From assembly GCF_001955715.1 (NCBI RefSeq), contig NZ_CP019239.1, positions 2,852,001 to 2,916,000 of the forward strand: a stretch of 64,000 bases of DNA. Reading direction: 5' to 3'. The position numbers and the translations under genes were made by a program. This DNA is from Rhodoferax saidenbachensis (GTDB lineage: Bacteria > Pseudomonadota > Gammaproteobacteria > Burkholderiales > Burkholderiaceae_C). Under the pieces are notes generated by a model. That model did no database searches, was not told the DNA's origin, and saw only the letters and a program-made list of their open reading frames with translations. Below are positions 13,837 through 60,991 of the stretch, piece by piece; position 1 is the stretch's first letter; the number at the start of each line of letters is the position of its first letter.

Positions 13837-15209
13837 AGCGCCGCGACCTGCTCCAGCAAGGCAGCATCGTGCTGGTATTGGGCCTGCCCGAGCTGGTGCT
13901 CTCCGCAGACGGCCCCAACATCGTCACGGTGCGGGTGTGGCCCGCGCCCGAATACTCCCGCGTGACCATCGAGTCCGACGCCGCGCTCAAGACCAAACAA
14001 ACCTTTGTACCCAGCCCACCCCGGCTGGCGGTGGACATTGAGGGCATCACGCTGAATCCAGCGCTCAAGGAACTGGTCGCCAAGGTCAAGGCCGACGACC
14101 CCAACATCGCCGGCATCCGCGTGGGCCAGTTCACCCCCAGCATCGTGCGCCTCGTGGTCGACCTCAAGCAAGCGATACGCCCCCAGGTGTTCTCACTCGC
14201 GCCGGTGGCGGCCTACCAACACCGGCTGGTGTTTGACCTGTACCCCGAAAAAGAAGCAGACCCGCTGGAAGCATTGATTGCCGAGCGACTGCAGGACAAG
14301 CCATCCGCAACCCCCGCCCCCACTGCAGCGGCGTCCGCCGCGCGGCCTGCGGGTGACCCGCTGGGCGACCTGATTGCCCAGCAGACCCAGAAAACGCCAT
14401 CGCCCGCCAAGCCCAAGCCCGACCCCAAATCCGCTACGAATTCGATAGCTGGTGGCGCAACATCCACGGGGGCTGAGGCTACAGAACGCTTGATTATTGT
14501 GGCGCTGGACCCGGGCCATGGCGGTGAAGACCCGGGTGCTGTAGGCCCCGGCGGCACGCGTGAGAAAGACGTGGTGCTCAAGCTGGCCCACCTGCTACGC
14601 GAACGCATCAACAACGCCACCGTCAACGGCAACGCCATGCGTGCCTACCTCACGCGCGATGCCGACTTCTTTGTCCCGCTGGGCACCCGCGTGCAAAAGG
14701 CCCGCCGCGTACAGGCCGACCTGTTTGTTAGTCTGCATGCCGACGCTTTTTTTACGCCTGACCCACAGGGCGCCAGCGTGTTTGCGCTGAGCCAAGGCGG
14801 CGCATCCAGCAGCGCGGCGCGCTGGATGGCGGCCAAGGAAAACAAGGCGGATTTGATTGGTGGCCTCAACGTCAAGGCCAAGGATGCAACGGTTCAGCGT
14901 GCCCTTTTAGACATGAGCACCACGGCCCAGATCAACGACAGCCTCAAGCTCGGCAAAAACCTGCTCGGTGAAATCGGCCGCGTCGGCAAGCTGCACAAGG
15001 CCAAGGTCGAGCAAGCCTCGTTTGCGGTGCTCAAGGCCCCCGATATTCCCAGCGTGCTGGTGGAAGCCGCCTTCATCAGCAACCCGTCGGAAGAAGCCAA
15101 GCTCAACAGCGACGTTTACCAGAACCAGTTGGCCGATGCGCTGATGCGTGGCATTGAGGCGTATTTTGCGAAAAATCCGCCACTGGCGCGGAATCGGACG
15201 ACGAGTTAG
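13833..15209 (+). CDS. amiC: N-acetylmuramoyl-L-alanine amidase (AmiC type)
   Basis: A periplasmic zinc amidase that splits septal peptidoglycan during daughter-cell separation. The 458 residues start with a twin-arginine-like signal (KRRDLLQQG), then an AMIN domain (about residues 30-135), a low-complexity Pro/Ala linker (about 150-215) and an Amidase_3 domain. That domain has the zinc motif DPGHGGEDPGAVGP, a catalytic His in VSLHADAF and the Glu in LVEAAFISN. The TTG start at 13833 overlaps the tsaE stop; a frame open from further upstream is antisense-free but lies within tsaE. The linker carries a 48-bp dispersed repeat (14433-14480). The IS30 element lies just 18 bp after the stop. Confidence 0.93.
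   Translation: MKRRDLLQQGSIVLVLGLPELVLSADGPNIVTVRVWPAPEYSRVTIESDAALKTKQTFVPSPPRLAVDIEGITLNPALKELVAKVKADDPNIAGIRVGQFTPSIVRLVVDLKQAIRPQVFSLAPVAAYQHRLVFDLYPEKEADPLEALIAERLQDKPSATPAPTAAASAARPAGDPLGDLIAQQTQKTPSPAKPKPDPKSATNSIAGGATSTGAEATERLIIVALDPGHGGEDPGAVGPGGTREKDVVLKLAHLLRERINNATVNGNAMRAYLTRDADFFVPLGTRVQKARRVQADLFVSLHADAFFTPDPQGASVFALSQGGASSSAARWMAAKENKADLIGGLNVKAKDATVQRALLDMSTTAQINDSLKLGKNLLGEIGRVGKLHKAKVEQASFAVLKAPDIPSVLVEAAFISNPSEEAKLNSDVYQNQLADALMRGIEAYFAKNPPLARNRTTS
14433..14480 (+). repeat. 48-bp dispersed repeat, copy in amiC linker
   Basis: Starts GCTACGAATTCGATAGC and contains GGCGCAACATCCACGGGGGC. It is aligned without gaps to the family consensus GCTAT-N7-ATAGC / TGCTTGCGCAAT / GGGCTACAGGC. 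It sits in codon frame 0 and encodes ATNSIAGGATSTGAEA in the disordered linker between AMIN and amidase domains. Confidence 0.7.
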
Positions 15210-15227
15210 CGGGTGGCTGCTTTGCGG

Positions 15228-15253
15228 GGCGGATTCAACCGGTCGATGCAACA
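15228..15253 (+). repeat. IS30 left terminal inverted repeat
   Basis: 26 bp identical, as reverse complement, to 16429-16454. It contains the transposase stop codon (complement of 15235-15237). Confidence 0.9.
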
Positions 15254-16393
15254 AGTTGGCTGAATCGTTCAGCAGGCGTTTCATAGTCTAGTGTCATCCG
15301 TGGACGCTCGTTAAGCCTTCTCGCCACCGCATTGAGTTGGGCCTGTGAGTATCCAGATATGTCTACTCCCTTGGGGAAGTACTGTCTCAGCAGACCGTTC
15401 GTATTCTCATTGCTCCCACGCTGCCAAGGGCTGCGGGGATCACAGAAGTAAACACTGATGTCTGTGGCCAAGGTGAAGCGCTTGTGGCCTGCCATCTCCT
15501 TGCCACGATCCCAGGTCAATGACTTGTACAGCTCATGGGGCAACTTGCGCGCATGCTTGATCAGTGCATTGACGACCGTCTCAGTATCTTTGCTGGCAAC
15601 CTTCACCAGCATTACGTAGCGGGTCTGCCGCTCAACCAGTGTCGCAATCTGGGTGTTGATACTTCCAAAGAGCAAGTCACCTTCCCAATGGCCTGGCACG
15701 GCCCGGTCTTCCACCGAAGCTGGACGCTCGCTGATGGACACCGTGTCTGTGATCTTGCCGTGGTTGTCTGTCTTCTGGGTGTGGTGGCGCGAACGGCGCA
15801 TGGCCCGGGTGCGTCTCAAATGCTGCAGTAGCTCCTTGTTCAAGGCGCCACGGGCTTGAATAAAGAGGCTGCGGTAGATGGTTTCGTGTGACACGTGGTA
15901 GTTCCCGTCGCACGGATAAGTATGCTTCAACCATCCTGCGATCTGCTGCGGTGCCCACTGCCGCTGGAGCTTGCCTGCCACGATGTGGGCCAGGCTTGGG
16001 TTCTGAACCAACTTGCAGCGCTTGGGGCGGTGCGCTCTGTCCCAGGCGGCCTGGTCAGCTTGGGTTGCTCGGTAGCCGCTTTGACCGCCGTTGCGCAATA
16101 TCTCTCTGCTGACGGTTGATGGCGCTCGCCCAAGCCGGGAGGCAATTGAGCGGATCGACTGCCCTGTCACCAGTGCGCGTGATATCTCTTCCCGCTCGGC
16201 CAAGCTCAGCACTAGCGCAGAGCGGCTACGCTGTGGTGGGCATATTCCACCAGTCTCAGCGAGGATACGATTGACGGATGAGTGGTTACGGTTAAACAAC
16301 TGCGCAATCTGCTGCAGATTCACCTTTCTTCCAGCGTTCCCACATCAAAGCCTTCTGGCTTTCCGTGTAGTAAATCCTTGTTCTGTATTTCAT
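15235..16393 (-). pseudogene. IS30 transposase with N-terminal frameshift
   Basis: IS30-family DDE transposase. The main open part (15235-16323, 362 residues) has an HTH (LQQIAQLFNRNHSSVNRIL), a second HTH (SIRSIASRLGRAPSTVSREI) and the rve-type catalytic domain with VPGHWEGDLL (first Asp), LTWDRGKEM (second Asp) and RGSNENTNGLLRQY (Glu). The natural start is the ATG at 16393: it has AAGGAG 7 bp upstream and encodes MKYRTRIYYTESQKALMWER, the conserved N-terminus. That frame breaks after KKGES near 16315, where the sequence lacks two bases compared with the expected GES-LQQ junction, and terminates a few codons later. Reinitiation at the GTG at 16323 could give a shortened protein without the first 24 residues. 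Function is doubtful. Confidence 0.85.
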
Positions 16394-16428
16394 TGGCAAC
16401 ACTCCTTCTGCTCACGCAGGTTTTAGTG

Positions 16429-16454
16429 TGTTGCATCGACCGGTTGAATCCGCC
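16429..16454 (-). repeat. IS30 right terminal inverted repeat
   Basis: Reverse complement of 15228-15253, 26 of 26 bases. It lies upstream of the transposase start, and the promoter would be between here and 16400. Confidence 0.9.
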
Positions 16455-16587: not shown

Positions 16588-16594
16588 CTCAATC

Positions 16595-17746: not shown

Positions 17747-17754
17747 CACGTCCC

Positions 17755-19641: not shown

Positions 19642-21621
19642 GTGAACGCGCCTTTGTCCTCCCCTCCCCGCCGCCCCATCCGCGAACTGCCCGACGAACT
19701 GATCAGCCAGATTGCCGCTGGCGAGGTGGTGGAACGCCCGGCCAGCGTGGTGCGCGAGCTGGTGGACAACGCGCTGGACGCGGGTGCCACCCAGGTCACG
19801 CTGCGGCTGCTGGCTGGCGGCGTGCGCCTGATCAGCGTAGAAGACGACGGCCAGGGCATCCTGCGCGACGAACTACCCATTGCCTTCAAACGCCACGCCA
19901 CCAGCAAGATCGGCAACCTGCGTGATCTGGAGTCGGTGGCCACCATGGGTTTCCGTGGCGAGGCACTGGCCGCTATTAATTCCATAGCTGATTGCGCAAT
20001 CCTGTCGCGGGCTAGCGGCATAAACGATGCCTATTTGCTCGATGGCCGCACCGGTGAACTCAAACCCGTGGCGCGCAGCCAGGGCACCACGGTCGAGGTC
20101 AAAGAGCTGTTCTTCAGCACCCCGGCACGCCGTAAATTCCTCAAAACCGACGCCACCGAGCTGGCCCACTGCATAGAAGCCGTGCGCCGCCACGCGCTGG
20201 CCCGCCCGGACGTGGGTTTTGCCATCTGGCACGAGGGCAAGCTGATTGAGCAATGGCGCCGCTGTGAGCAGACGGACCCACTGGCCGCACTGGACCAGCG
20301 CTTGTCAGACGTGCTAGGCCCCGAGTTTCTGGCGCAAAGCATCCGTGTGGACTGGCACAGCCGCCAGACCAGTGAATTCAGCAGCGTGCCCCTGCGCGTC
20401 TGGGGCCGCGTGGGTGTGCCCGACGCCGCCCGCTCGCGCGCCGACCAGCAGTTCTGCTACGTCAACGGCCGTTTTGTGCGCGACAAGGTGCTGACCCACG
20501 CCGCGCGCAGCGCGTACGAGGACGTGTTGCATGGCCACCGCCAGCCGGTGTATGCGCTGTACCTGAGCATGGACCCGGCGCGTGTGGACGTGAACGTGCA
20601 CCCCACCAAGATCGAAGTACGCTTTCGCGACAGCCGCGAGGTGCACCAGGCCGTGCGCCACGCCGCAGAAGATGTGCTGGCCGCTCCGCGCGCCGGTACA
20701 GCGGCAGGTGCGGCAGACGGGCATGCAGTAGCCCCATCGCTGCTTTCCGCTGGAAATTTTGTGCCAGGACTTGGGGTTTTGCCAAAAGTGCCTGTAGCCC
20801 CCATGTACTCTGCGCAACCAGCTATCAAATTTGAAGCAGATGGCGGACTGGTGGGTCACCGAGTCAGCGATGTAGGGGCCCTGTGGCAGCCTTCTTCGGC
20901 GCAGGCCGCATCCAACTTCCCCGTTCGGGCTGAGCCTGTCGAAGCATCCACCAGCCCTTCGACAAGCTCAGGGCGAGCGGCATCTGGAACGGATAACACT
21001 CCCCTGCCTCAAGGCGACTGGCCCCTGGGCCGCGCCGTCGCGCAACTGCAAGGCATCTACATCCTGGCCGAAAACGCCCAGGGCCTGGTGATTGTGGACA
21101 TGCACGCCGCCCACGAACGCATCGTCTACGAGCGGCTGAAAAACCAGTTGGCCCTGACGGCGCCCGATGGCACCGTGCACCCGCTGGCCAGCCAGCCACT
21201 CTTGATTCCCGCCACCTTTGCCGCCACGCCCGACGAGGTAGCCACGGCCGAGGCGCATGCCGCCACGCTGCACACGCTGGGCCTGGAGATCAGCCCGTTC
21301 TCGCCCAAGACGCTGGCCGTGCGCGCCGTACCCACCACGCTGGCGCAGGGCGACGCGGTGGAACTGGCCCGCAGCGTGCTGGCCGAACTGGCCCAGCACG
21401 ACGCCAGCACCGTGATCCAGCGTGCGCAAAACGAAATCCTCGGCACCATGGCCTGCCACGGCGCGGTACGCGCCAACCGCCGGCTCACGCTTGAAGAAAT
21501 GAACGCCCTGCTGCGCGACATGGAGGCCACCGAGCGCAGCGACCAATGCAACCACGGCCGCCCCACCTGGCGCCAGCTCACCATCCGCGAACTGGATGGC
21601 CTGTTTTTACGCGGACGCTAA
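19642..21621 (+). CDS. mutL: DNA mismatch repair protein MutL
   Basis: MutL couples MutS mismatch recognition to strand incision. The 659 residues show the N-terminal GHKL ATPase (ERPASVVRELVDNALDAGAT; EDDGQGI; GFRGEALAAINSI), a transducer domain ending near residue 345, a variable linker (about 350-455) and a C-terminal dimerisation domain. DMHAAHERIVYE, ACHGAVRANR and QCNHGRPTW match the DQHA(X)2E(X)4E, ACR and CPHGRP endonuclease motifs, so this MutL is probably a nicking enzyme, as expected where MutH is absent. It starts with GTG. Two 48-bp repeats (19972-20019, 20790-20837) and one TCGAAG palindrome (20921-20980) are read in frame; the linker is unusually repeat-derived. Confidence 0.95.
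   Translation: MNAPLSSPPRRPIRELPDELISQIAAGEVVERPASVVRELVDNALDAGATQVTLRLLAGGVRLISVEDDGQGILRDELPIAFKRHATSKIGNLRDLESVATMGFRGEALAAINSIADCAILSRASGINDAYLLDGRTGELKPVARSQGTTVEVKELFFSTPARRKFLKTDATELAHCIEAVRRHALARPDVGFAIWHEGKLIEQWRRCEQTDPLAALDQRLSDVLGPEFLAQSIRVDWHSRQTSEFSSVPLRVWGRVGVPDAARSRADQQFCYVNGRFVRDKVLTHAARSAYEDVLHGHRQPVYALYLSMDPARVDVNVHPTKIEVRFRDSREVHQAVRHAAEDVLAAPRAGTAAGAADGHAVAPSLLSAGNFVPGLGVLPKVPVAPMYSAQPAIKFEADGGLVGHRVSDVGALWQPSSAQAASNFPVRAEPVEASTSPSTSSGRAASGTDNTPLPQGDWPLGRAVAQLQGIYILAENAQGLVIVDMHAAHERIVYERLKNQLALTAPDGTVHPLASQPLLIPATFAATPDEVATAEAHAATLHTLGLEISPFSPKTLAVRAVPTTLAQGDAVELARSVLAELAQHDASTVIQRAQNEILGTMACHGAVRANRRLTLEEMNALLRDMEATERSDQCNHGRPTWRQLTIRELDGLFLRGR
19972..20019 (+). repeat. 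48-bp dispersed repeat, copy in mutL ATPase domain
   Basis: Starts GCTATTAATTCCATAGC, contains GATTGCGCAATCC and ends GCGGGCTAGCGGC. It encodes AINSIADCAILSRASG directly after GFRGEAL, a conserved ATPase motif region that is not an insertion relative to other MutL proteins. It is in codon frame 0, like the amiC and miaA copies. It shares nearly all of bases 15-31 with the miaA copy. Confidence 0.65.
20790..20837 (-). repeat. 48-bp dispersed repeat, copy in mutL linker
   Basis: In reverse complement it starts GCTTCAAATTTGATAGC, contains TGGTTGCGCA and ends GGGGGCTACAGGC. On the coding strand it encodes VPVAPMYSAQPAIKFEA in the variable MutL linker. It uses the same codon frame as the reverse copies in the permease (48406) and exporter (60232). 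Confidence 0.75.
20921..20980. repeat. TCGAAG-type palindromic repeat inside mutL
   Basis: CCGTTCGGGCTGAGCCTGTC followed by GAAG, a spacer, then CTTCGACAAGCTCAGGGCGA: two inverted halves. In frame it gives PVRAEPVEAS...STSSGRA in the linker. Further copies are at 21642, 39312, 54055 and 63231. Confidence 0.8.
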
Positions 21622-21641: not shown

Positions 21642-21736
21642 CCCGTTCGGCCTGAGCTTGTCGAAGGCTTGTGGCACTGAGCGCTGCGCTTCGACCCTTC
21701 GACAAGCGCAGGACAGGCCAAGCTCAGCGCGAACGG
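21642..21736. repeat. TCGAAG-type palindromic repeat after mutL
   Basis: Two inverted halves, CCGTTCGGCCTGAGCTTGTC plus GAAGG, and CAAGCTCAGCGCGAACGG, with an inner TTCGACCCTTCGACAAGC. It fills most of the 132-bp gap between mutL and the MFS gene, and ends 17 bp before the MFS start. A terminator function is possible. Confidence 0.75.
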
Positions 21737-23186: not shown

Positions 23187-23214
23187 GGCTGATCTTTTTT
23201 GCTTTGATCGGGTA

Positions 23215-23440
23215 GTTTGTTTTTTTGGCATGTCGGGTTATGCGCCCGACAGCGCACTCACTTTTCTTGCTTCGCCAAGAAAAGTAAGCAAAAGAAGGCG
23301 AGCCGGATTCGTCGGCCCTACGCTTCGCTACGGGCACGCTGCGTTGCTCGGTTTGGGCGGGGTCTGGCTCGAACTCGCCCTGCGGGCTCAGACAATCGCC
23401 AGCCCTAATCCGCCCAAACCTGCGCTACTCGCCTCCTCAT
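23215..23440 (+). repeat. Long inverted repeat, left arm (dispersed element)
   Basis: Contains GGCATGTCGGGTTATGCGCC, CGACAGCGCACTCACTTTTC, CTTCGCCAAGAAAAGTAAGC and GGGGTCTGGCTCGAACTCG. These recur in opposite orientation at 23570-23786 with interruptions. Similar sequence is common between genes in Comamonadaceae. The 693-bp gap 23187-23879 has no credible gene; every open frame in it comes from this repeat. Confidence 0.75.
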
Positions 23441-23569
23441 TACGGCGCTACCGCCAATCCAACAGCCAGATACCAAATACCGAACTTCGTCCGCGCTGCG
23501 CGCGGACGGGTATTCACCTCGCCGTGCCGAGCGCAGCGATGGCGCGTAGGTCGCCCCACTCCCTTCTGT

Positions 23570-23786
23570 ATGCGCCGAGGAGCACAGGGGGCAGTGGATC
23601 AGGGCTGGCGATTGTTTGAGCGTAGCGAGTTCGAGCCAGACCCCACTGAACCCGAGCACCGCAGGTTGCCCCGGCGCAGCCGGGGTCGCAGACAGTAGGG
23701 TCGCCTTTCTTTTGGTGACTTTTCTTTGGCGAAGCAAAGAAAAGTTACTGCGCTGTCGGGCGCACATCCCGACACGCCAAACAAAC
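23570..23786 (-). repeat. Long inverted repeat, right arm (dispersed element)
   Basis: In reverse complement it reads GGCGTGTCGGGATGTGCGCC, CGACAGCGCAGTAACTTTTC, CTTCGCCAAAGAAAAG and GGGGTCTGGCTCGAACTCGC, matching the left arm. A CCCCGGCTGCGCCGGGG palindrome lies inside. About 130 bp of unrelated sequence separate the arms. Confidence 0.75.
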
Positions 23787-23879
23787 CAACCACCTCACCA
23801 GAAAATAAGAAAACCAAGAAATAGGGTTATGCCAACCCCACCGAATGCACCAATTTGGCGCACGTAAAATCCCCCCTCC

Positions 23880-25304: not shown

Positions 25305-26513
25305 ATGCCACAACGCCAAACTACCAACACCATGCCCTCCGGGCTGATCGTGCTGGTGCTCTCTCTGCTGCTGGGCATCCAGCCCGTCACCACCGATTTG
25401 TATTTGCCCGCCCTGCCCGGCCTGACACAGGGCTTTGGCGCCAGCATGGCGCAGGCGCAGCTCACGCTGACCGCGCTGCTGCTGGCCTTTGGCCTGTCGC
25501 AGCTGATCTGGGGTCCGTTGTCGGACCGTTTTGGCCGCCGCCCCATTCTGCTGGTGGGCCTGTCTGCCTATGTGCTGGCGGCGGTAGGCAGCGCCTTTGC
25601 ACCCAGCATGGAGTTGCTGATCGTCTGGCGCGGCGTGCAGGGCGCTGCCATGGGCGCAGCCGTGATGTGCGCACGCGCCATCGTGCGCGACCTGTACCTG
25701 CCCGCGCAGGGCGCCAGCGTGATGTCCAAGGGCCTGAGCGGACTGGGCGTGATTGCCTGCCTGTGTGCACCGCTGGGCGGACTGCTCACAGCATTGTGGA
25801 GCTGGCACGCGGCCCTGCTGGCGCTGGCCGCATTTGGTGCACTGGCGCTGGCCCTGGTGGCCTGGCGCTTTGAAGAAACCATTCCCCGCAAAAACCCGCT
25901 GGCGCTACAGCCAGTTACCCTGGTGCGCACCTGGGCCGACATCCTGCGCAACCCGACGTTTCTGGCGTTCTCGGCGCTGTCCGTCTGTTCGTACGCTGGC
26001 CTGTTCACCTTTCTGGCGGCTTCCTCGTTTGTGTTCATCCACCTGCTGGGTTTCAGCCCCACGCAGTTTGGCCTGGTGATGCTGGCCATGTCGGCCACTT
26101 ACCTCAGCGCCACCTTTTTGTGCCGACGCCTGCTGCTGCGCTTTGGCGTGCGCCGCACAGTGGCCATTGCAGGTGCGCTCTCGGTCAGTGGCGGCACGCT
26201 GATGGGGGTGCTGGCGCTAGCGGGCGTGCAATCGGGCTGGGCCATCATCATCCCGCACGGCATCTTCATGCTGGGCCATGGCATCCACCAGCCGTGTGGC
26301 CAAAGTGGCGCGGTGGGCCCTTTCCCCCAAGCAGCAGGCGCAGCCTCGGCGCTCAACGGTTTCCTGATGATGGTGGCGGCCTTCTGCGTAGGCCAATGGC
26401 TGGGTACGCACATGGACGGCACGGCCCATCCGCTGGTCTACGGCATCTGGTTCTGGAGCGTGCTGATTGCCCTCAGTGCGTGGACGCTGGTGCAGAAATA
26501 TGGCAAGTCCTGA
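25305..26513 (+). CDS. Bcr/CflA family MFS drug exporter (second copy)
   Basis: A 402-residue, 12-helix MFS protein. It has [20 protein letters not shown], the loop [17 protein letters not shown] and [15 protein letters not shown]. It is related to, but clearly different from, the gene at 21754, so it is not a recent duplicate. It is probably co-transcribed with the MATE gene (9-bp gap) and overlaps the miaA start by 14 bp. The substrate is unknown. Confidence 0.9.
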
Positions 26514-27468
26514 GCCCCTGCCCTACATCGCACTGGCCGGCCCCACGGCGGCCGGCAAGACCGCGGCCGCGCTGGCCATTGCAGAGGAGCACGCGGTAGA
26601 AATCATCAGCGTCGATTCCGCGCTGGTCTACCGCGGCATGGACATCGGCACAGCCAAACCCAGCGCTGCAGAACTCGCCGCCGTACCGCACCACCTGATC
26701 AATATCCGCGACCCACTGCACGCCTACAGCGCCGCCGAGTTTGTGCGCGACGCCGAGGCGCTGATGGCCGACATCCGCGCGCGCGGCAAGCTTCCGCTGC
26801 TGGTGGGCGGCACCATGCTGTATTTCAAGGCACTGTTTGACGGCATAGACCCCATGCCGTCTGCCAACCCGGAAGTGCGTGCGCAACTGGAGCAGGAGGC
26901 GCAGGCCAAAGGCTGGCCCGCCATGCACGCCGAGCTGGCGCTGGTCGACCCCATCACCGCCGCCCGTCTGGCACCCGCTGACAGCCAGCGTATCCAGCGC
27001 GCACTGGAGGTGTACCGGGTGTCAGGCCAACCGCTCTCGCACTTTCACGCCACCCAAAACGCTATCAAAACAGAAGCTGCTTGCGCAATCCCCGTGCGGG
27101 CTACAGCCCTAATTTCCTTGGAACCCGACGACCGCGCCTGGCTGCACAACCGCATTGCCCAGCGTTTTGACGCGATGCTGGCGCAAGGTTTTCTGGACGA
27201 AGTGCAGGCCCTGCGCGCGCGCGGCGACCTGCACCCGGACTTGCCATCGATGCGCTGCGTCGGTTACCGCCAGGCATGGGAAGCGCTGGATGGTTTGTGG
27301 CCCATGGCCGAGCTGCGCGACAAGGGCATCTTTGCCACACGCCAACTGGCCAAGCGGCAGATCACCTGGCTGCGCTCCATGCCACAGCGCCAGGTCGTGG
27401 CCTGCGACCAACCCGATGCGCTGGACCAGGTGCTGCACAAAGTACGCAAGCTGCTGGAACCGACATGA
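26500..27468 (+). CDS. miaA: tRNA dimethylallyltransferase MiaA
   Basis: MiaA transfers a dimethylallyl group to A37 of UNN-decoding tRNAs. The 322-residue protein shows a P-loop (GPTAAGKT, residues 14-21), [29 protein letters not shown], and in the C-terminal half [17 protein letters not shown] and [18 protein letters not shown] 26500 ([10 protein letters not shown]) was chosen; it overlaps the upstream MFS stop. A 48-bp repeat (27061-27108) encodes [16 protein letters not shown] between HFHATQN and LISLEPDDR, where other MiaA proteins have a shorter unconserved stretch. It is followed by an ABC ATPase with ATGA overlap. Confidence 0.95.
27061..27108 (+). repeat. 48-bp dispersed repeat, copy in miaA
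   Basis: Starts GCTATCAAAACAGAAGC, then TGCTTGCGCAATCCCC and GCGGGCTACAGCC. In codon frame 0, no stop in that frame. One of the copies closest to the consensus. Confidence 0.8.
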
Positions 27469-37693: not shown

Positions 37694-39281
37694 GGGTTTC
37701 TTCCTCAGAGCCCTGCCACTCAATGGCAACAAAGGCCAGCAGCGCGAGCGCCATAAGCACACAGGCCAGTACCAACGCGGCGTCCATATTGGCGGCGCCG
37801 GGGCGGCCCAGGTGCTGGTAAATCAGGGTCGTGAGCGTGGCCCATTCGGGGCGCGATAAAAACAGGGTCACGGCAAACTCGCCGACGGCCGTGGCAGCCG
37901 CAAATGCCATGCCGCGGCGCAGGGCCGGTGCCAGCAGTGGCAAGGTGACACGCAAAAAGGTGCGGGCGGGTGATGCACCGAGCGAACGCGCCGCGTCGGC
38001 ATACGACGCCGGCAGACTGTCCAGACGCGACGCGACCGACTTGGCGATGAACGGGTACGCCAGCAGCGCATAGGCCGCCACCAACAAGCCGAAACTGCCG
38101 CTCCATTGCGGGTACAGCAGCAACAGGCCAAACGCCACCATCACCGGCGACACCACAAAAGGTAGGAACACCAGGGTGCGCAGTAACACCGAGCGGCGTG
38201 CCGCCAGTGCATGCAGCAAGCCCAGCACGGTGGCCAGTGCCAGCGCCAGCGTGGAGAAACGCAAGGTGTTCCACAGTGCTGCCAGCGTGTCGTCCTCCAC
38301 CAGAACCACCCAGGCAGATGCTCCTGAAATAAGAGCACGCCACGCAATCGCCACAAGGGGCGCAGCACAAAACAATGCTAAAACCAGCAACGCAGCCGCC
38401 ACCGCACCCCACTGCCCTGTACCCCGCGGCGCACGGCGTGCCAGGTGGTCGGCGCGCGCTGGCGTGGCCAGACGTCGTTCGATCAGCGCATAGGCCAGCG
38501 CCACCAGCACGGTCAGTGCCACCATCCAGGTAGCCAGCACCCCAGCCTGCGCCAGCTGCAGCTCGTGCGCCACCAGGGTGTAGATCTCGACCTCCGCCGT
38601 GGCGTATTGCTGGCCACCCAGCACCAGCGCCAGACCAAAACCGGCAAAACAGTACAGGAACACTAGGCACATCGCCGACATCAGCCACGGCGCGATGGCA
38701 GGCCACTCCACGCGCCAGAACGCACGCCAGGGCGTGGCCCCAAGGCTGCGCGCCGCGGCCACGCGCGCCGCGCTGACCTGGCCCAGCGCATCCGTGGCGG
38801 CGCGCACCACCACACACAGGTTGAAAAACAGATTGCCGTAGAGCAGCAGCCAGGGTGTGCCCTGCAAATCCGGTCCACCCAGCCCCACCAACACACCACG
38901 CGGGCCCAGCAAGGCCAGCACGCCCAGCGCCGCCACCAGCGTAGGCACAACAAACGGCAGCATCAGTGCATGCAGCACCAGGCTGCGCCCGGGAAATTCA
39001 AACCGCGCCAGCACCCAGGCCACCGGCAGACCCAGCAGCAGCGCCGCCACACAGGTGATGGCCGCCTGCAAGAAAGACCACACAATGCGCCAGCGCAAAT
39101 ACGGGTCCAGCCAGGGCGTCCAGAGTGCGGCCAGCCCATGTGCCCCGCCCTCACCGGTGCCCGCAGTCCACCCCTCCGCCAGCAGGCGCAATGCGGGCGC
39201 CACCAGCACCACCAGCAAAAAAGCCAGTGGTAGCAGCGCGAGCCAAGCGGGCGCAGTGGTGCGAGGGCGAGAGGGATTCAT
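37686..39281 (-). CDS. thiP: Thiamine ABC transporter permease
   Basis: A 531-residue fused double permease with two copies of the binding-protein-dependent transport fold (about 12 helices). EAA-like loops are visible as AARSLGATPWRAFWRVEWP and ARSLGASPARTFLRVTLPLL, each followed by Pro or Ala. It forms the channel of ThiBPQ. A stretch at 38320-38367 may be a degenerate 48-bp repeat. The 158-bp gap before it, after thiB, contains a TCGAAG palindrome, which may reduce read-through. Confidence 0.9.
   Translation of the reverse strand: MNPSRPRTTAPAWLALLPLAFLLVVLVAPALRLLAEGWTAGTGEGGAHGLAALWTPWLDPYLRWRIVWSFLQAAITCVAALLLGLPVAWVLARFEFPGRSLVLHALMLPFVVPTLVAALGVLALLGPRGVLVGLGGPDLQGTPWLLLYGNLFFNLCVVVRAATDALGQVSAARVAAARSLGATPWRAFWRVEWPAIAPWLMSAMCLVFLYCFAGFGLALVLGGQQYATAEVEIYTLVAHELQLAQAGVLATWMVALTVLVALAYALIERRLATPARADHLARRAPRGTGQWGAVAAALLVLALFCAAPLVAIAWRALISGASAWVVLVEDDTLAALWNTLRFSTLALALATVLGLLHALAARRSVLLRTLVFLPFVVSPVMVAFGLLLLYPQWSGSFGLLVAAYALLAYPFIAKSVASRLDSLPASYADAARSLGASPARTFLRVTLPLLAPALRRGMAFAAATAVGEFAVTLFLSRPEWATLTTLIYQHLGRPGAANMDAALVLACVLMALALLAFVAIEWQGSEEETHA
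38320..38367 (+). repeat. Possible degenerate 48-bp repeat in thiP
   Basis: Shares the core CACGCAATCGCCACAAGGGG and the GCT...AGAGC start with the family, but only about 27 of 48 bases match the miaA copy. It may be chance; listed with low confidence. Confidence 0.3.
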
Positions 39282-39311: not shown

Positions 39312-39385
39312 TCGTTCGGGCTGAGCTTGGCCTGCCCTGAGCCCGTCGAAGGGTCGAAGCCCTTCGACGGGCTCAGGGCGAACGG
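39312..39385. repeat. TCGAAG-type palindromic repeat between thiB and thiP
   Basis: TCGTTCGGGCTGAGC, CTGAGCCCGTCGAAGG and the inverted CCTTCGACGGGCTCAGGGCG then AACGG. Perfect 12-bp arms in the middle (GAGCCCGTCGAAGG/CCTTCGACGGGCTC). It lies inside the thiBPQ operon. Confidence 0.85.
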
Positions 39386-40474: not shown

Positions 40475-40552
40475 CAAGTACCTACTTTCAATGCGCCAAC
40501 GCAGGTCGCATCAAAAGCCGACACCCCAGAAAACCACGGGATCAAGGCTCTT

Positions 40553-40634
40553 CACACTTCCTACGCTGGCATGACCCAGATCAGGTGAGTGGGGTATTTC
40601 TCAGTCCGTTCCAAAAGAACAGACACCCCCGGTG
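40553..40634 (-). promoter_or_regulatory. TPP riboswitch (THI element) before thiB
   Basis: Read on the minus strand: CGGGGGTGTCTGTTC, then GGACTGAGAAATACCC, then CACCTGATCTGGGTCATGCC and AGCGTAGGAAG. These are the GGGGTG-CTGAGA-ACCC and ACCTGATCTGG-TAATGCCAGCGTAGGGA signatures with one or two changes. It lies about 80 bp before the thiB start. A control at translation initiation is likely, since no clear terminator follows. Confidence 0.93.
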
Positions 40635-40666
40635 AAGCCCGGATTGTAGGTGCAGGTGCGCCTGGC

Positions 40667-46534: not shown

Positions 46535-49120
46535 ATGTTGCTACCTTTGCTTACGACTTTCTCCTGGCAGGAGCTGCGCCAGCACCCCTGGCGCAACGCA
46601 GCGGCCGTGGTGTCGGTGATGCTGGGGGTGGCGCTGGCGTTTGCAGTGCACTTGATCAATGCTTCGGCGCTGGACGAGTTCTCGCAGGCCGTGCGTTCAG
46701 TAGGCGGCCAGCCCGACCTGGAACTGCGCACCGCCACGGGCAGCGCCAGCAGTGTGGACGTCGCACTGTGGAGCCGGCTGCTGCACCACCCCGACGTGGC
46801 GGTGGCCGCACCGGTGCTGGAGCTCAGCACCTACGCCGTGCGCGCGGGCCAGAAAACCCTGCTGCGCGTGGTGGGCGTGGACGCGCTGCAGGTGGCCGCG
46901 GTGGCGCCAGACCTGCTGCCCCTGCCCACTGCCCATGCAGACCGCCTGGCTTTCTTCGCACCCGACGCGGTTTTTCTCAACCCGCTGGCGCGCCAGGCGC
47001 TGCCCGGTGCCACGGTGCAGTTGCAGCAGGGCCTGCGACTGCACACCCTGCAGGTCGCTGGCAGCGTGCAGGCCGGTGGTGCGCCGCTGGCGGTGATGGA
47101 CATTGCCGCCGTGCAAAGCCTGTTTGGCCGCAACGACCTGAGCCGCGTGGATGTCCGGCTGCGCGCGGGTGTGGACCGTGCCCGCTTTGTGCGCGACGTC
47201 ACGGGCGCCACCGACTGGCCGGCCGGTGCCACGCTGCGCGCGCCCGGCGATGCGGTGGAACGCATCAGCAACCTGTCGCGCGCCTACCGCGTGAACCTGA
47301 CCGTGCTGGCGCTGGTGGCGCTGTTCACCGGGGGCTTTCTGGTGTTCTCCGTATTGGCGCTGAGCGTGGCGCGGCGCGCGCAGCAGTTTGCGCTCTTGGG
47401 TGTGCTGGGCCTGACCGGCCGGCAGCGGCTGCAACTGGTGCTGCTGGAGGCGGGGGCGCTGGGCAGTATTGGCAGCCTGCTGGGCCTGGCGCTAGGCAGT
47501 GCGCTGGCCGCACTCGCGTTGCGCCTGTTGGGCGGTGACTTGGGTGGTGGATTCTTTGCGGGCAGCGCACCGGCCTTGCAATGGAGTGGTTTGGCAGCGC
47601 TGGTGTTTGGCCTGCTGGGCGTGGCTGCGGCCCTAGTGGGGGCCTGGGCTCCCGCTCGGCTGGCGCAGCAGTTGCCACCGGCGCAAACCCTCAAGGGCCT
47701 GGGCACACCAGATGCGAACCACCACCGCGCCTGGCTGGGCGCGGCGCTGCTGGTGGCGGGCGGCCTGCTGGCGCTGCTGCCCCCGGTTTGGGACATCCCG
47801 CTGGCGGCGTACCTGAGCGTGGCGTGCCTGTTGCTGGGCGGCATCACCGCATTGCCCGCTGCCGTGGGCTGGGTACTGGACGGCGTGGCACCCTTCGTGG
47901 CGCGCCACGCCCTGCCACTTTTAGCGGTGGAGCGCGCGCGCCGCGTGCGCGAAAGTGCCGCGGTGGCGGTGAGCGGCGTGGTGGCGTCGCTCAGCCTGGC
48001 GGTGGCACTGACCGTGATGGTGGCGAGCTTCCGCACCTCCGTGACAACCTGGTTGGACGCGGTGCTGCCTGCGGCCCTGTATGTGCGCACCGCCACCAGT
48101 GGCAGCGCAGCGGACACGGCCTACTTGGACCCGGCGTTTGTGCAAGGCGCCGCAAAGGTGCCGGACGTGGAGCGCCTGAGCACCCAGCGCACGTTATCGC
48201 TCACGCTGGACCCGGCCCAACCGGCCATTGCGCTGCTGGTGCGCCCGCTGCGCGATGCCCAGACGGGCGCACTGAACCTGCCGTTGGTGGGCAACCCAGT
48301 GCCGGTGCCCGCAGGGCGTGTAGGCGTGTACGTGAGCGAAGCCATGCTGGACCTCTACGCTGCGCGGGTGGGACACGACCTGCCTGCACTTTCAGCATCT
48401 TTTAGGCCTCCAGCTCCCGTGGATATTGCGCAACCAGCTACTTTTTTTGTAGCGGGTGTGTGGCGCGACTATGCCCGCCAGTTTGGCACTGTGGCCATGG
48501 ATCCGGCCGACTTTGCACGCTACAGCCGCGACACACGGGTCAACGACATCGCCTTTTGGCTGCACCCGCAGGCGGATGTGCCGCAGGTGCAAGAACAGTT
48601 GCGCGCGCTGGCCAACCAACTGGCCAACACCCCGGACGGTGCGGCGGGCAACTTGCTGGAGTTTGGTTCGGCGGCCGAGATCCGCGCCACCAGCCTGAAG
48701 ATTTTTGACCGCAGCTTTGCCGTGACCTACTGGCTGCAGGCGGTGGCGATTGGCATTGGGCTGTTTGGTGTGGCGGCCAGCTTCAGCGCGCAAGTGCTGG
48801 CGCGGCGCAAGGAGTTTGGGCTGCTGGTGCACCTGGGGCTCACACGGCGGCAGATTCTGCGCGTGGTGGCTTTGGAGGGCATGGCCTGGACCTCGCTCGG
48901 TGCCCTGGCCGGTGTAGCACTTGGCTTGGCGGTGGCCGTGGTGCTGGTGCATGTGGTGAACCCGCAGAGCTTTCACTGGACCATGGAGCTGGCCCTGCCC
49001 TGGGGTCGGCTGGCGGCGCTGGCCGCTGCCGTGGTGGTGGCAGGAACAACAACGGCCTGGCTGTCAGGCCAGGCCGCTGCGGGGCGCGATGCGGTGATGG
49101 CGGTGAAAGAGGACTGGTGA
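46535..49120 (+). CDS. Large FtsX-family ABC permease (AttFG/LolCE-like)
   Basis: An 861-residue permease with two FtsX-type halves: an N-terminal helix (RNAAAVVSVMLGVALAFAVH), a periplasmic domain (about 40-255), a block of three helices starting VNLTVLALVALFTGGFLVF, a middle helix region (about 420-480) and a second FtsX domain at the end (AVAIGIGLFGVAASFSAQVL, EGMAWTSLGALAGVALG). This architecture is that of mechanotransmission-type transporters such as LolCE, MacB and AttFG. There is no ATPase next to it; the LolD/AttE-type ATPase at 27465 is a likely partner (inferred). A 48-bp repeat lies in the second periplasmic part (48406-48453). Confidence 0.85.
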   Translation: MLLPLLTTFSWQELRQHPWRNAAAVVSVMLGVALAFAVHLINASALDEFSQAVRSVGGQPDLELRTATGSASSVDVALWSRLLHHPDVAVAAPVLELSTYAVRAGQKTLLRVVGVDALQVAAVAPDLLPLPTAHADRLAFFAPDAVFLNPLARQALPGATVQLQQGLRLHTLQVAGSVQAGGAPLAVMDIAAVQSLFGRNDLSRVDVRLRAGVDRARFVRDVTGATDWPAGATLRAPGDAVERISNLSRAYRVNLTVLALVALFTGGFLVFSVLALSVARRAQQFALLGVLGLTGRQRLQLVLLEAGALGSIGSLLGLALGSALAALALRLLGGDLGGGFFAGSAPALQWSGLAALVFGLLGVAAALVGAWAPARLAQQLPPAQTLKGLGTPDANHHRAWLGAALLVAGGLLALLPPVWDIPLAAYLSVACLLLGGITALPAAVGWVLDGVAPFVARHALPLLAVERARRVRESAAVAVSGVVASLSLAVALTVMVASFRTSVTTWLDAVLPAALYVRTATSGSAADTAYLDPAFVQGAAKVPDVERLSTQRTLSLTLDPAQPAIALLVRPLRDAQTGALNLPLVGNPVPVPAGRVGVYVSEAMLDLYAARVGHDLPALSASFRPPAPVDIAQPATFFVAGVWRDYARQFGTVAMDPADFARYSRDTRVNDIAFWLHPQADVPQVQEQLRALANQLANTPDGAAGNLLEFGSAAEIRATSLKIFDRSFAVTYWLQAVAIGIGLFGVAASFSAQVLARRKEFGLLVHLGLTRRQILRVVALEGMAWTSLGALAGVALGLAVAVVLVHVVNPQSFHWTMELALPWGRLAALAAAVVVAGTTTAWLSGQAAAGRDAVMAVKEDW
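48406..48453 (-). repeat. 48-bp dispersed repeat, copy in FtsX-type permease
   Basis: In reverse complement it starts GCTACAAAAAAAGTAGC, then TGGTTGCGCAATATCC and GGGAGCTGGAGGC. Coding strand gives RPPAPVDIAQPATFFVA, in the same codon frame as the mutL linker copy. Confidence 0.78.
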
Positions 49121-49386
49121 GAGCCTGTTTACGATCTAGACGGGGTCACGCAAGTACCTTTTCGGGAGGGGCTGCTAGGCGCAAAACGCAGTCGGGCTGG
49201 TGCCCGGCAAGGCTTTGCAACACCGCAGACCGCCCGAAAAGACACTTGCCCTGCGGGTTGGGACGAAATCGGGCGATTTGCCCACCAAACCCCTTGCATG
49301 GGCATGAGCCCATGCGGCGTGGTCTTGGCAGGCAACTCATCCCGATTGCGTCCCAACGTGACCCCGTATAGATCGTAAACAAGCTC
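49121..49386. mobile_element. MITE-like foldback element
   Basis: A 266-bp non-coding element starting directly after the permease stop. Terminal inverted repeats of 30 bp (49121-49150 and 49357-49386, 28 of 30 match; core TGTTTACGATCTA and ACGGGGTCACG). Inside are further inverted pairs: 49151-49166 with 49233-49248, 49257-49282 with 49331-49357, and a perfect GCATGGGC-ATGA-GCCCATGC at 49296-49315. No credible gene and no clear target duplication. Transposase source unknown. It covers nearly all of the gap to dctP. Confidence 0.65.
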
Positions 49387-49409
49387 TACGCCCCACCACC
49401 CATCTGCAC

Positions 49410-54054: not shown

Positions 54055-54135
54055 CCGTTCGGGCTGAGCCTGTCGAAGCCTTCTACAAGTCGTTAATTTG
54101 TAAGGGCTGCGTTTCGACAAGCTCAACGCGAACGG
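54055..54135. repeat. TCGAAG-type palindromic repeat after the LacI gene
   Basis: CCGTTCGGGCTGAGCCTGTC plus GAAG, a spacer, then TTTCGACAAGCTCAACGCGA and ACGG. It fills most of the tail-to-tail gap between the LacI gene and the DUF2917 gene and could be a bidirectional terminator. Confidence 0.85.
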
Positions 54136-57373: not shown

Positions 57374-57386
57374 GCGCGCGCACCCT

Positions 57387-58475
57387 ATGCTGAGCCGCCG
57401 CGCCCTGCTGGCGGCCCCGGCGCTGGCCTGCGCCTGGCCGGCAGCCTGGGCCTTGCCACCCGCCACGCTGCGCTTCCCGCGCGACGCAGGTAGCCACAAC
57501 GACTTTGCCACCGAGTGGTGGTACCTCACCGGGTATGCCAACGTCGCAGGTCAACCAGCCGCACTGGGCTATCAGGTGACTTTTTTCCGCCGCCGCGTGG
57601 CCGCCACGCAGGACATGCCGTCGCGCCTGGCCGCCAAACAACTGCTGTTTGCCCATGCCGCAGTCACCGACGTGCAGGGCAAGAAACTCTGGCACGACCA
57701 GCGCATCGCCCGCTGGTCGGGTGAAACCGCTGGCGGCAACCCCGCAGACACCGCGTCTGCCAGCACACAGGACACCGGTGTGCTGTTGCGCGACTGGTCC
57801 TTGCGCCGCAACGGCGCCGACCTGCAGGCGCAGATCCCGGCAGGTGACTTCACGCTGAACCTGCAGTTCAAGGCCAACCAACCCGTGCTGCTGCAGGGGC
57901 AAGACGGCTTGTCACGCAAGGGCCCTGAGGAGAAGCAGGCCAGCTACTACTACAGCCTGCCGCAACTGCAGGTCAGCGGCAGCATTGGGCTGAAGGGCAA
58001 GACCCACACACTGGAGCCCGGCAGCACGGCCTGGCTGGACCACGAATGGAGCCAGGAGGTGCTGCACCCGCAAGCGGTGGGCTGGGACTGGATCGGCATC
58101 AACCTGTTGGACGGCAGCGCGCTCACGGCCTTCCAGTTGCGTGACAAAGAAGGGCGCGCGTTGTGGGACGGTGGCTCGTTTCGCAGCGCATCAGGCACGC
58201 GGTATGGGTTCTCGCGTGGCGAGGTGTTGTTCCGGCCCGTGCGCACCTGGCGCAGCGCCTTGAGCAAAGCCGGCTACCCGGTGAAGTGGATCGTGCGCAC
58301 CCCGGCTGATTTCTACACCGTCAAAGCCGTGGTCGACAACCAGGAGCTCGACAGCCGTGGCTCCACGGGCGCCATCTACTGGGAGGGCCTCTGCGAAGTG
58401 TGGGACAGCAATGGCAAGCTGGTCGGGCGTGGGTATCTGGAAATGACGGGGTATGCAGCAACGCTGAAGCTCTGA
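57387..58475 (+). CDS. AttH/CrtC-family lipocalin-like exported protein
   Basis: A 362-residue exported protein of the AttH/CrtC (carotenoid 1,2-hydratase-like) family with two lipocalin-like domains. Tat-like/Sec signal MLSRRALLAAPALACAWPAA, then NDFATEWWYLTGYANVAGQP, PAALGYQVTFFRRRVA, LDHEWSQEVLHPQAVGWDWI and YWEGLCEVWDSNGKLVGRGY; all are family signatures. AttH partners with an ATPase and an FtsX-type permease in AttEFGH-like systems. Here the ATPase (27465) and permease (46535) are elsewhere in the window. It follows the M48 protease by 13 bp. No carotenoid genes are nearby, so CrtC activity is unlikely. Confidence 0.86.
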   Translation: MLSRRALLAAPALACAWPAAWALPPATLRFPRDAGSHNDFATEWWYLTGYANVAGQPAALGYQVTFFRRRVAATQDMPSRLAAKQLLFAHAAVTDVQGKKLWHDQRIARWSGETAGGNPADTASASTQDTGVLLRDWSLRRNGADLQAQIPAGDFTLNLQFKANQPVLLQGQDGLSRKGPEEKQASYYYSLPQLQVSGSIGLKGKTHTLEPGSTAWLDHEWSQEVLHPQAVGWDWIGINLLDGSALTAFQLRDKEGRALWDGGSFRSASGTRYGFSRGEVLFRPVRTWRSALSKAGYPVKWIVRTPADFYTVKAVVDNQELDSRGSTGAIYWEGLCEVWDSNGKLVGRGYLEMTGYAATLKL

Positions 58476-58489
58476 TGCTTGCGTCAATT

Positions 58490-58538
58490 GCTATTATTTT
58501 GCTAGCTGCTTGCGCACATCCCATAAGGGCTACAGGCC
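58490..58538 (+). repeat. 48-bp dispersed repeat, intergenic copy 1
   Basis: GCTATTATTTTGCTAGC, TGCTTGCGCACATCCC and AAGGGCTACAGGCC, 49 bp with one extra base. It lies after the AttH-like gene, tail-to-tail with the VOC gene. A second copy flanks the other side of the VOC gene in direct orientation. Confidence 0.8.
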
Positions 58539-58566
58539 TATTTTCTATAAATTCTCCGGTACAGGC

Positions 58567-58971: not shown

Positions 58972-59102
58972 AGGGGTTCCTTCCTGGTACTTGGGGTATC
59001 GCCAACGGCATGCCCGCAGCTGCGGCAGGCAGTCCGCATCTGCATGGTTTATAACTGGCTGCATCCGGCTGGCAACAAACTGAAACAAATCGCAAAGCCA
59101 TT

Positions 59103-59150
59103 GCTACAAATAGAATAGCTGCTTGCGCAATACTCATGAGGGCTAGCGGC
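59103..59150 (+). repeat. 48-bp dispersed repeat, intergenic copy 2
   Basis: GCTACAAATAGAATAGC, TGCTTGCGCAATACTC and AGGGCTAGCGGC. It lies between the VOC and MsbA-like genes; direct repeat of 58490-58538, about 610 bp apart. Confidence 0.8.
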
Positions 59151-59212
59151 ATATTTCACACTATTTCTCCAGCCACCTTGCACCCAGCGCTCTCACCCCC
59201 ATCTAGGCAGCC

Positions 59213-60991
59213 ATGACTTCTTCCGATCGCCCCAAGGCCACCAATCCCAAATCCCTCTCCGGCCTGCTGCCTTTTCTGGTGCCGTACCGCGGGCGCATAG
59301 CGCTGGCGCTGCTCTTCCTGGTGCTGGCGGCAGTCGCCACGCTGGCATTTCCGCTGGCGCTGCGCAGCCTGATTGATGGCGGGCTGGTGCAGAGCGACAA
59401 GGGCGCACAGGTGATGGCGCTACGTGAACACTTTGCGGCGCTGTTTGCCGTGGCCGTGGCGCTGGGGCTGTTTTCGGCGTGCCGCTTTTACATGGTGAGC
59501 TGGCTGGGCGAGCGTGTCACCGCCGACATGCGCAATGCGGTCTACAGCCATGTGCTCAAACAAAGTCCCGAGTTTTTTGAAACCACGCAAACCGGCGAAG
59601 TGCTGTCGCGCCTGTCGGCCGACACGACGCTGGTGCAGACCGTGGTGGGCTCGTCACTCTCCATGGGCCTGCGCAATGCGGTGATGGGCATTGGTGCGCT
59701 GGCCGTGCTGGTGTGGACCAACCCGGTGGTGATGTTGCAGGTGCTGGTGGTGCTGGTGTTGATCGTGCTGCCCAGCCTGTGGTTTGGCCGCCGTGTGCGC
59801 AAGCTCTCGCGCGCCTCACAAGACCGCGTGGCCGACTCCAGCGCGATTGCCGCCGAAGTGCTCAACGCGATTCCCGTGGTGCAAAGCTACACGGCAGAGG
59901 GGCGCGAGACCGCACGCTTTGTCACCTCCACCGACAACGCGTTTGAAACCGCAACCAAACGTAGCCTGATGCGTTCGGTGCTGGTCGCGTTCATCATCAT
60001 CGCCACCAGTGCTGCATTGCTGTGGGGCCTGTACCAGGGCACACAGGCGGTGGCCGAAGGGCGCATCAGCGCCGGCCATCTGGGCCAGACCGTGGTCTAC
60101 GTGATCATTCTGGCCAGCGCGTTCGCCGTGCTGGGCGAGGTCTATGGCGACCTGCTGCGCGCGGCAGGTGCCACCGAGAGGTTGATGGAATTGCTGGGCA
60201 CGCAATCGCCCATCACTTCGCCCTCCAATCCGGATGTAGCCCTTATGCCGACTGCGGGAAGTGCTATCAAATTTGAAGCGATTGACTTCCACTACCCGTC
60301 ACGCCCGCTGCAACCCGCGCTGCAAAACTTCAGTCTCAACGTGTTGCCCGGCCAGACCGTGGCCATCGTCGGACCCAGTGGCGCGGGCAAGAGCACGGTG
60401 TTCCAGTTGCTGCTGCGTTATTACGACCCGCAGAGCGGCAACATCGTGTTGGATGGTGTGGAAACGCGCCAGCAGTCATTGGATGCGCTGCGTCAGCGCG
60501 TGGGCATCGTGCCGCAGGACGCGGTGATCTTCTCCAGCAGCGCGCTGGAAAACATCCGCTACGGCAAGCCCGATGCGACGGATGCCGAAGTCAAGGCCGC
60601 AGCCCAAGCCGCCTTCGCCCACGAATTCATCCAGGACCTGCCCGAGGGCTACGACACCTTCCTCGGTGAGCGCGGTGTGCGCCTGTCGGGCGGTCAGCGC
60701 CAGCGCATCGCCATTGCCCGCGCCATGCTGAAAAACCCACCCCTGCTACTGCTGGACGAAGCCACCAGCGCGCTGGACGCCGAGAGCGAACGCATGGTGC
60801 AGGCTGCACTGGAATCGGCCATGCGCGACCGCACCACGCTGGTCATCGCCCACCGCCTGGCCACGGTGCAAAAGGCCGATCGGATCGTGGTGCTGGACCA
60901 CGGCAAGCTGGTGGAACAGGGCACGCATGCTGAGCTGGTGGCGCGCGGTGGCGTCTACGCCGGACTGGCGGCGCTGCAATTCAACGCCTGA
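59213..60991 (+). CDS. MsbA-like ABC exporter (fused TMD-NBD)
   Basis: A 592-residue half-transporter: six helices (residues about 25-315) then an ATPase. Walker A GPSGAGKSTVFQLLLRYYDP, Q-loop GIVPQDAVIFSSSALENIRY, signature LSGGQRQRIAIARAMLKNPP, Walker B LLLDEATSALDAESER, H-loop VIAHRLATVQ, all complete. It resembles the MsbA-related group TIGR02204, which export lipids or drugs. ATG 59213 fits. A 48-bp repeat (60232-60279) spans the junction between the two domains. No partner is adjacent; it functions as a homodimer. Confidence 0.93.
   Translation: MTSSDRPKATNPKSLSGLLPFLVPYRGRIALALLFLVLAAVATLAFPLALRSLIDGGLVQSDKGAQVMALREHFAALFAVAVALGLFSACRFYMVSWLGERVTADMRNAVYSHVLKQSPEFFETTQTGEVLSRLSADTTLVQTVVGSSLSMGLRNAVMGIGALAVLVWTNPVVMLQVLVVLVLIVLPSLWFGRRVRKLSRASQDRVADSSAIAAEVLNAIPVVQSYTAEGRETARFVTSTDNAFETATKRSLMRSVLVAFIIIATSAALLWGLYQGTQAVAEGRISAGHLGQTVVYVIILASAFAVLGEVYGDLLRAAGATERLMELLGTQSPITSPSNPDVALMPTAGSAIKFEAIDFHYPSRPLQPALQNFSLNVLPGQTVAIVGPSGAGKSTVFQLLLRYYDPQSGNIVLDGVETRQQSLDALRQRVGIVPQDAVIFSSSALENIRYGKPDATDAEVKAAAQAAFAHEFIQDLPEGYDTFLGERGVRLSGGQRQRIAIARAMLKNPPLLLLDEATSALDAESERMVQAALESAMRDRTTLVIAHRLATVQKADRIVVLDHGKLVEQGTHAELVARGGVYAGLAALQFNA
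60232..60279 (-). repeat. 48-bp dispersed repeat, copy in MsbA-like exporter
   Basis: In reverse complement it starts GCTTCAAATTTGATAGC, then a divergent middle, and ends AAGGGCTACATCC. It encodes PDVALMPTAGSAIKFEA at the TMD-NBD junction, where KFEAIDFHYPSRP begins the conserved first strand of the ATPase. Same codon frame as the other reverse copies. Confidence 0.65.

Follow-up and report, generated by a model that had tools for sequence, protein, structure and literature searches.

A dispersed DNA motif of ~64 bp in Rhodoferax saidenbachensis and its relatives is written over protein-coding codons and might serve as a recognition signal

Results

The 64,000-nucleotide stretch of the Rhodoferax saidenbachensis chromosome analysed here (NZ_CP019239.1, positions 2,852,001 to 2,916,000; the window, in whose numbering positions are given) carries copies of a dispersed motif of ~64 bp in unrelated genes and between genes. 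On the plus strand, copies lie in an amiC-like gene (13833-15209) at 14427..14497, in frame 0 in the linker before the conserved LDPGHGG region; in a gene that we take to be mutL from its GFRGEAL peptide (19642-21621) at 19969..20038, directly after GFRGEAL and with no indel relative to copyless members of the genus; and in a miaA-like gene (26500-27468) at 27054..27124. Minus-strand copies were detected in the variable region of mutL, in reverse orientation (20779..20843), in an FtsX-type permease gene (46535-49120) at 48390..48456 and, weakly, in an MsbA-related exporter gene (59213-60991) at 60235..60284. Two intergenic copies, both on the plus strand, lie just 3' of the open reading frame 57387-58475 (58485..58557) and just 5' of the exporter gene (59100..59169). 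A further weak plus-strand copy (38312..38389) runs reverse to an ABC-transporter permease gene (37686-39281), a place where three relatives have clearer copies. The names amiC, miaA and FtsX-type are those of a first-pass annotation of the window; the FtsX-type gene has no NCBIfam match, the best matches of the ABC-transporter permease gene are under their cut-offs, and MsbA_rel, the best match of the exporter gene, is just below its cut-off.

That annotation had placed eight clear copies at 14433, 19972, 20790, 27061, 48406, 58490, 59103 and 60232, and all eight were recovered, seven with an E value of ~1e-12 or better in the window and the one at 60232 with 0.0012; six of them stand in the alignment of the search model, with 58490 and 60232 outside it. 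The copy that it had called doubtful, at 38320, is taken as real, with 11.6 bits and with relatives' copies at the matching place scoring 19.1, 32.1 and 20.1, against nothing at 5 bits or more in a reversed control.

The unit length had been given as 48 bp, and this has to be revised, since the conserved part extends over ~64 bp: an AATT-like left edge, GCTAY-N7-RTAGC, TGCTTGCGCA, a spacer, GGGCTAgAGGCC, and ATTTGaC..A on the right. This extent was derived from 38 places of the same 4.26-Mb chromosome, the window's 59103 among them, and the matrix was trained on 43 copies (the 38 chromosomal ones and five from the window). We scanned the window and 20 evenly spaced 20-kb stretches, 464 kb in total, with a cut-off of 10 bits and found 67 matches, some of which are training copies, including 57 at 40 bits or more; the reversed 464 kb gave none at 5 bits or more. 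The motif is thus strongly over-represented and dispersed over the chromosome on both strands (67 matches against none in the control). The density is ~1 copy per 7 kb (1.5 per 10 kb), which extrapolates to ~600 copies per genome.

Among the 67 copies, 36 lie in genes, 29 are intergenic and two stand at gene edges. Genes were called by our own codon-usage caller and not taken from the annotation (434 genes, 87.6% of the 464 kb coding), so that only 36 of 67 copies in genes means an enrichment outside them. Within genes, 17 of 19 reverse copies use one frame and 12 of 17 forward copies one frame, consistent with the earlier description of a true repeat family in unrelated genes with two preferred frames. 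On reading the consensus, the preferred frames are the stop-free ones, and stop codons therefore explain part of the frame choice, as had been proposed. The forward frame encodes a lipobox-like IAAC. A copy shortly after the ATG of another locus (L021, ~992-1069; genome positions 2653402-2653474) reads MSKFTTKFIAACALSMGAAGLFYTNSALAQA, which is signal-peptide-like in our own translation.

The layout of the copies was compared with that expected for the binding site of a chromosome-organising or replication/segregation protein, in which a nucleoid complex would bind some 600 sites of a multi-part motif and the dialect would follow the evolution of the protein. The copies are spread chromosome-wide on both strands, three GCTA/TAGC blocks in the consensus resemble half-sites, and the spacing is slightly more regular than expected by chance (mean 2.95 and variance 1.42 over 20 stretches of 20 kb), all of which would suit such a protein. 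In the 150 best matches the two halves of the chromosome show no consistent strand bias (minus to plus, 50 to 23 in the first and 39 to 38 in the second), which speaks against this explanation for oriented signals only; an oriented signal of the Chi or KOPS (FtsK-orienting polar sequence) kind was rejected on this ground. We regard a nucleoid-type binding site as somewhat unlikely.

The complementary arms GCTAT and ATAGC could also point to an RNA element (terminator, stabiliser or small RNA), and 8 of 25 non-coding copies lie between convergent genes, compared with 28 of 175 such gaps overall. However, copies occur in both orientations inside genes, no Rfam family exceeds its cut-off at the window copies, and varying arm pairs are paired less often than expected (244 copies, five species). 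An RNA hairpin was rejected for this lack of covariation in the arms, and an RNA function of any kind seems most improbable.

The first-pass annotation had compared the family to Rickettsia palindromic elements (RPE), which are repeats translated in frame inside unrelated genes as insertions of tens of residues, and had proposed a 48-bp insertion that keeps the frame. The likeness extends to translation in frame inside unrelated genes; the insertion does not hold. Of 37 coding copies in the sampled DNA, 20 allowed an alignment with an orthologue that lacks the copy, in a total of 42 comparisons. The net length difference around the copy ranges from -5 to +9 amino acids and is 0 in 18 of the 42 comparisons, with at least one comparison of exactly 0 at 11 of the 20 sites; an insertion of 16 or more amino acids occurs in none of the 42, and no site adds the 16 residues of the proposed unit. 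An RPE-like in-frame insertion was therefore rejected for the coding copies, the maximum being +9 amino acids, and in contrast to RPE the codons are overwritten here without such an insertion. Coding sites can also be present or absent at equal length among motif-bearing species (a site of the relatives G001 and G034 compared with this genome; locus L121 at 2165).

The overwriting is best at silent positions. Coding copies match the non-coding consensus in 0.80, 0.75 and 0.87 of cases at codon positions 1, 2 and 3, compared with 0.92 for the 25 non-coding copies from which that consensus was made and on which it was scored. At fourfold-degenerate sites, pooled over three species comparisons, 140 of 424 sites in strong motif columns are G or C, against 5253 of 6300 in the flanks, and the identity between species at fourfold sites is 0.64-0.69 in strong columns, 0.52-0.56 in the flanks and 0.50-0.61 in weak columns. 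The motif is thus written over existing codons, most completely at silent third positions.

The mutL copy at 19972 is an example. The MutL alignment around it shows no 16-residue gap in 28 members of the genus, this genome included, and two outgroup genomes. Motif codons are present in 14 genus genomes (matrix scores 37 to 64), while the other 14 encode almost the same peptide in GC-rich codons (-27 to +10) and the two outgroups have a different peptide (below -40). The annotation had allowed that the protein sequence alone might demand these codons: the near-identical peptide in copyless members agrees with that, and the GC-rich codons that encode it do not, so that the motif is not required by the protein alone. 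The peptide of the copyless Rhodoferax genomes may be the trace of a lost motif. In other genera with the motif, the reverse mutL copy was detected in 10 of the 10 with a mutL locus (in G087 with a score that barely exceeds the cut-off of 14 bits), and 7 of the 10 also have the forward copy, all at the expected distance and orientation as read from the strand; an eleventh motif-bearing genus gave no mutL locus. Neither copy is present in any of six genera without the motif, where absence was defined at a strict cut-off.

Most testable copies are kept at orthologous places. A copy was testable if both flanks were found in the DNA of a relative, whose stretches were fetched by gene tags, the others of 68 copies being outside that DNA or unplaceable. 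By this measure copies of this genome were also present at the same place in 26 of 31 cases in G007, 31 of 34 in G034, 27 of 33 in G001 and 9 of 11 in G015.

The consensus sequences of the species differ from each other. Column 38, chosen after inspection of the data as the most different column, reads G in this genome where G007 has C at 24 of the 26 sites that the two share, and A against C at one more; G034 has C at 27 of 31, opposite G at 25 of these and opposite A or T at the other two, and in G001 the column is mixed (C at 11 of 27). Conserved alanine codons at this column change from GCC here to GCG in 7 of 7 cases in G007, 8 of 8 in G034 and 4 of 9 in G001, compared with a background of 391 of 1960 (0.20) for G007 and 427 of 1980 (0.22) for G034. 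A dialect difference is clear for this genome against G007 or G034, and faint or missing for G001 and G015 and between G007 and G034. The species matrices were iterated from the matrix of this genome, and very different dialects would be missed by them.

Dialects and matching columns at many sites would also result if dispersed gene conversion between copies homogenised a functionless repeat. Copying of whole tracts would, however, change amino acids, and 13 of 21 coding sites compared with G007 have the same amino acid at column 38; the low-information columns of the best copies show no joint variation other than between neighbours. The columns of the 38 best-scoring copies are, neighbours aside, close to independent, with no more pairwise structure than after shuffling, and these copies form no subfamilies. 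Gene conversion appears very unlikely on these grounds. In unselected copies the similarity is more uneven than after shuffling of the columns, an excess that we read, short of proof, as mixed quality of the copies.

The motif is not confined to this genome and occurs in other Comamonadaceae too. A search with an exact pattern returned at least 120 stretches, and among the 80 matches listed the named genera are Rhodoferax, Polaromonas, Curvibacter, Acidovorax, Variovorax, Ottowia, Giesbergeria and Simplicispira; the density in these 80 loci, beyond the copy that fetched them, is 0-2.5 per 10 kb by label. At a strict cut-off, 19 genomes match out of 120 drawn from the family, a draw that includes this genome. 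Within the genus the distribution is near all-or-none: among 29 chosen genomes, 14 have at least 100 matches and nine have none, with three exceptions of 1, 1 and 13 matches, and none of the three outgroups has a match. The genome with 13 (G023) carries high-scoring copies in a fragmented assembly and its own mutL lacks the motif; contamination or recent import is possible.

No phage record was matched by blastn at an E value of 0.01, and only four plasmid records were. The 305-kb plasmid pOS401 has four copies in 300 kb scanned, against 48 in 312 kb of the chromosome of its own strain, OS-4, and two of the four lie in a stretch with a metZ-purF-cvpA-dedD-folC block. Plasmid DNA is thus poorer in the motif in the one case tested, and not free of it. 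For a nucleoid protein this evidence cuts both ways, the far denser OS-4 chromosome being in its favour and the copies on other plasmid records against it.

Other features of the window include a second, GC-rich repeat family, CCGTTCG.GCTGAGC.TGTCGAAG and its reverse, at 20921-20980, 21643-21735, 39313-39385, 54055-54135 and 63231-63260, which is also found in the variable region of mutL and in inverted pairs. One 600-bp stretch (23211-23794) contains nested long inverted repeats with arms of 46-58 nt, and an imperfect 56-nt inverted repeat lies at 49120-49387. A gene for an IS30 family transposase (15238-16098) lies between perfect 26-nt inverted repeats at 15228-15253 and 16429-16454, and a thiamine pyrophosphate (TPP) riboswitch was detected by Rfam on the minus strand at 40540-40640.

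Discussion

We suggest, tentatively, that the copies are sites of one DNA-level signal of ~64 bp with a putative trans-acting reader, perhaps in a step of DNA uptake or recombination; the motif would work like an uptake or recognition signal without being a proven member of that class. This signal reading is based on the orthologous places, the overwriting of silent positions, the base that differs in step between some species, the lack of subfamilies among the best copies and the near all-or-none distribution over genomes. A trans-acting factor would read the motif, and selection or molecular drive would keep the copies in place. The factor could be the specificity step of natural transformation, in the uptake or the recombination of kin DNA, in which case DNA with the current motif would replace alleles without it. 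If the reader changed, the sites would move to a new dialect; if it were lost, they would decay and in some cases the peptide would stay behind, as the copyless mutL suggests. It is possible, and we put it forward with slightly more reserve, that a long multi-part motif at hundreds of fixed sites in many genera, with silent codons rewritten and dialects in step between some species, has a putative reader that is not a known uptake-pilin system.

The closest parallels are the DNA uptake sequences (DUS) of Neisseriaceae and the uptake signal sequences (USS) of Pasteurellaceae. Like the motif, these form hundreds of dispersed sites inside and outside genes, kept at aligned places, and they are described as having dialects, placement in the core genome and an excess in genome-maintenance genes (PMC2397512, PMC3630211). 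The motif differs from both in its density of 1.5 per 10 kb, in its occurrence in another bacterial family and in its presence on some plasmid records. The density of DUS and USS is ~1 per kb. A study of Verminephrobacter eiseniae, another member of the Comamonadaceae, describes this species as transformable, and its authors suspect sequence specificity (PMC4212676).

Repair-type genes with copies are mutL (twice), mutS, recG, xseA, dprA and a DNA-deoxyinosine glycosylase gene, the copies in recG, mutS and the glycosylase gene being weak. We scanned 30 of the 34 copy genes (mutL, amiC, miaA and one small gene were left out) and found genome-maintenance genes in 5 of 30 at an E value of 1e-10, or 4 of 30 at the stricter cut-off of the controls, against 0 of 40 controls at 1e-60, 16 of which are unnamed; the controls were length-weighted copy-free genes, and one dGTPase among them was left uncounted. 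This excess is suggestive only.

Several observations weigh against a signal of the uptake type. ComEC is present in 10 of 10 genomes, and pilins over the cut-off of the ComP_DUS (DNA uptake receptor) family were found in 29 of the 31 genomes searched, in both cases with or without the motif. ComEC and ComP-type pilins were accordingly rejected as markers of motif-bearing genomes, and a diverged specific pilin receptor may still be compatible with the ComP_DUS result. The motif is ~64 bp long, compared with 9-12 bases for DUS and USS; the Haemophilus uptake signal with its flanks spans ~30 bases. It carries ~59-62 bits of information, far above the ~14 bits that we estimate would locate 600 sites. 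The dialects of G007 and G034 hardly differ from each other, G001 copies prefer their own dialect only moderately or weakly, and G015 copies favour the matrix of this genome in six of nine pairs, with few sequences. A 31.9-kb linear record labelled as a Rhodoferax antarcticus plasmid (NZ_CP019241.1, L343) has 11 copies, a density more than double that in the chromosomes of the sampled relatives. Beside toxin-antitoxin and transposase genes it contains pabB and a gene for an FtsX-like permease, and it could be either a fragment of a chromosome or an element that is really rich in the motif. One copy is present on a 7.2-kb Polaromonas plasmid that also has repA and parA. Finally, the gap between the genes that we take to be glyA and nrdR contains a full copy here, while four relatives are shorter there by 73-78 alignment columns, and two other non-coding sites show gaps of 47-72.

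These non-coding gaps would be expected of an old mobile element, a miniature inverted-repeat transposable element (MITE), a repetitive extragenic palindrome (REP) or an RPE-like repeat, inserted long ago and now kept. The information above the need of a recognition site, the copies on some plasmid records and the unequal similarity of the unselected copies also fit such an origin. REP, bacterial interspersed mosaic elements (BIME) and MITEs are short, reach high copy numbers and often lie between genes, and the motif shares the many short and often intergenic copies. It is unlike them in having about half of its copies in genes, in showing no subfamilies among the 38 best copies, and in that Y1 transposases, at 1-3 per genome with or without the motif, do not track it; REP propagated by REP-associated tyrosine transposases (RAYT) were set aside as improbable for the last reason. 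Further points against a mobile element are that no coding site has an insertion of 16-22 amino acids, that blastn matched no phage record and so few plasmid records, and that most testable sites are common to several species. We consider this explanation unlikely. The gain and loss of coding copies at equal length, together with the non-coding gaps of 47-78 bp, points to two modes of gain or loss, and an element-like past of the motif is possible.

Part of the family has probably been seen before. According to a 2017 scan, Polaromonas naphthalenivorans contains the pair ATAGCT(N)22CAAAAG in 125 copies, 18 of them in genes, as a potential novel motif, and Rhodoferax ferrireducens had the largest number of motif pairs (PMC5217627). 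The spacing of the pair fits motif columns 13-18 and 41-46, with CAAAAG falling on TAGAGG here, and the pair is probably an earlier sighting of part of the ~64-bp family; as described there it differs in comprising two pieces only, in one genome and with no mechanism. Nine Polaromonas loci did not contain the literal pair. The beta-proteobacterial repeat element (BRE) is described from Rhodoferax, Polaromonas and Acidovorax with some copies in genes, and differs in being ~90 bp long, with 69% GC in Bordetella, and in forming tandem arrays, a separation made by description only (PMC3110155). The GC-rich family of the window is possibly related to BRE. The string AGCTGCTTGCGC occurs in no paper of the open-access literature searched, subscription papers being outside this scope, and the same literature yielded no account of the family, of its copies in genes or of its dialects.

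To our knowledge, two bacterial groups with self-recognition in natural transformation are known. An uptake function of the motif would add a third such group, whose signal does not resemble those of the other two; a role in chromosome organisation would make it a signal of high density that has altered coding sequences. In both cases, the copies are a natural record of a DNA-level constraint that rewrites protein genes, with dialects and genome-wide absences that can be mapped on the tree. Clade-specific peptides such as AINSIADCAILSRA in MutL may be by-products of a DNA motif, a warning for the interpretation of such peptides, and the motif opens the search for the factor that reads it.

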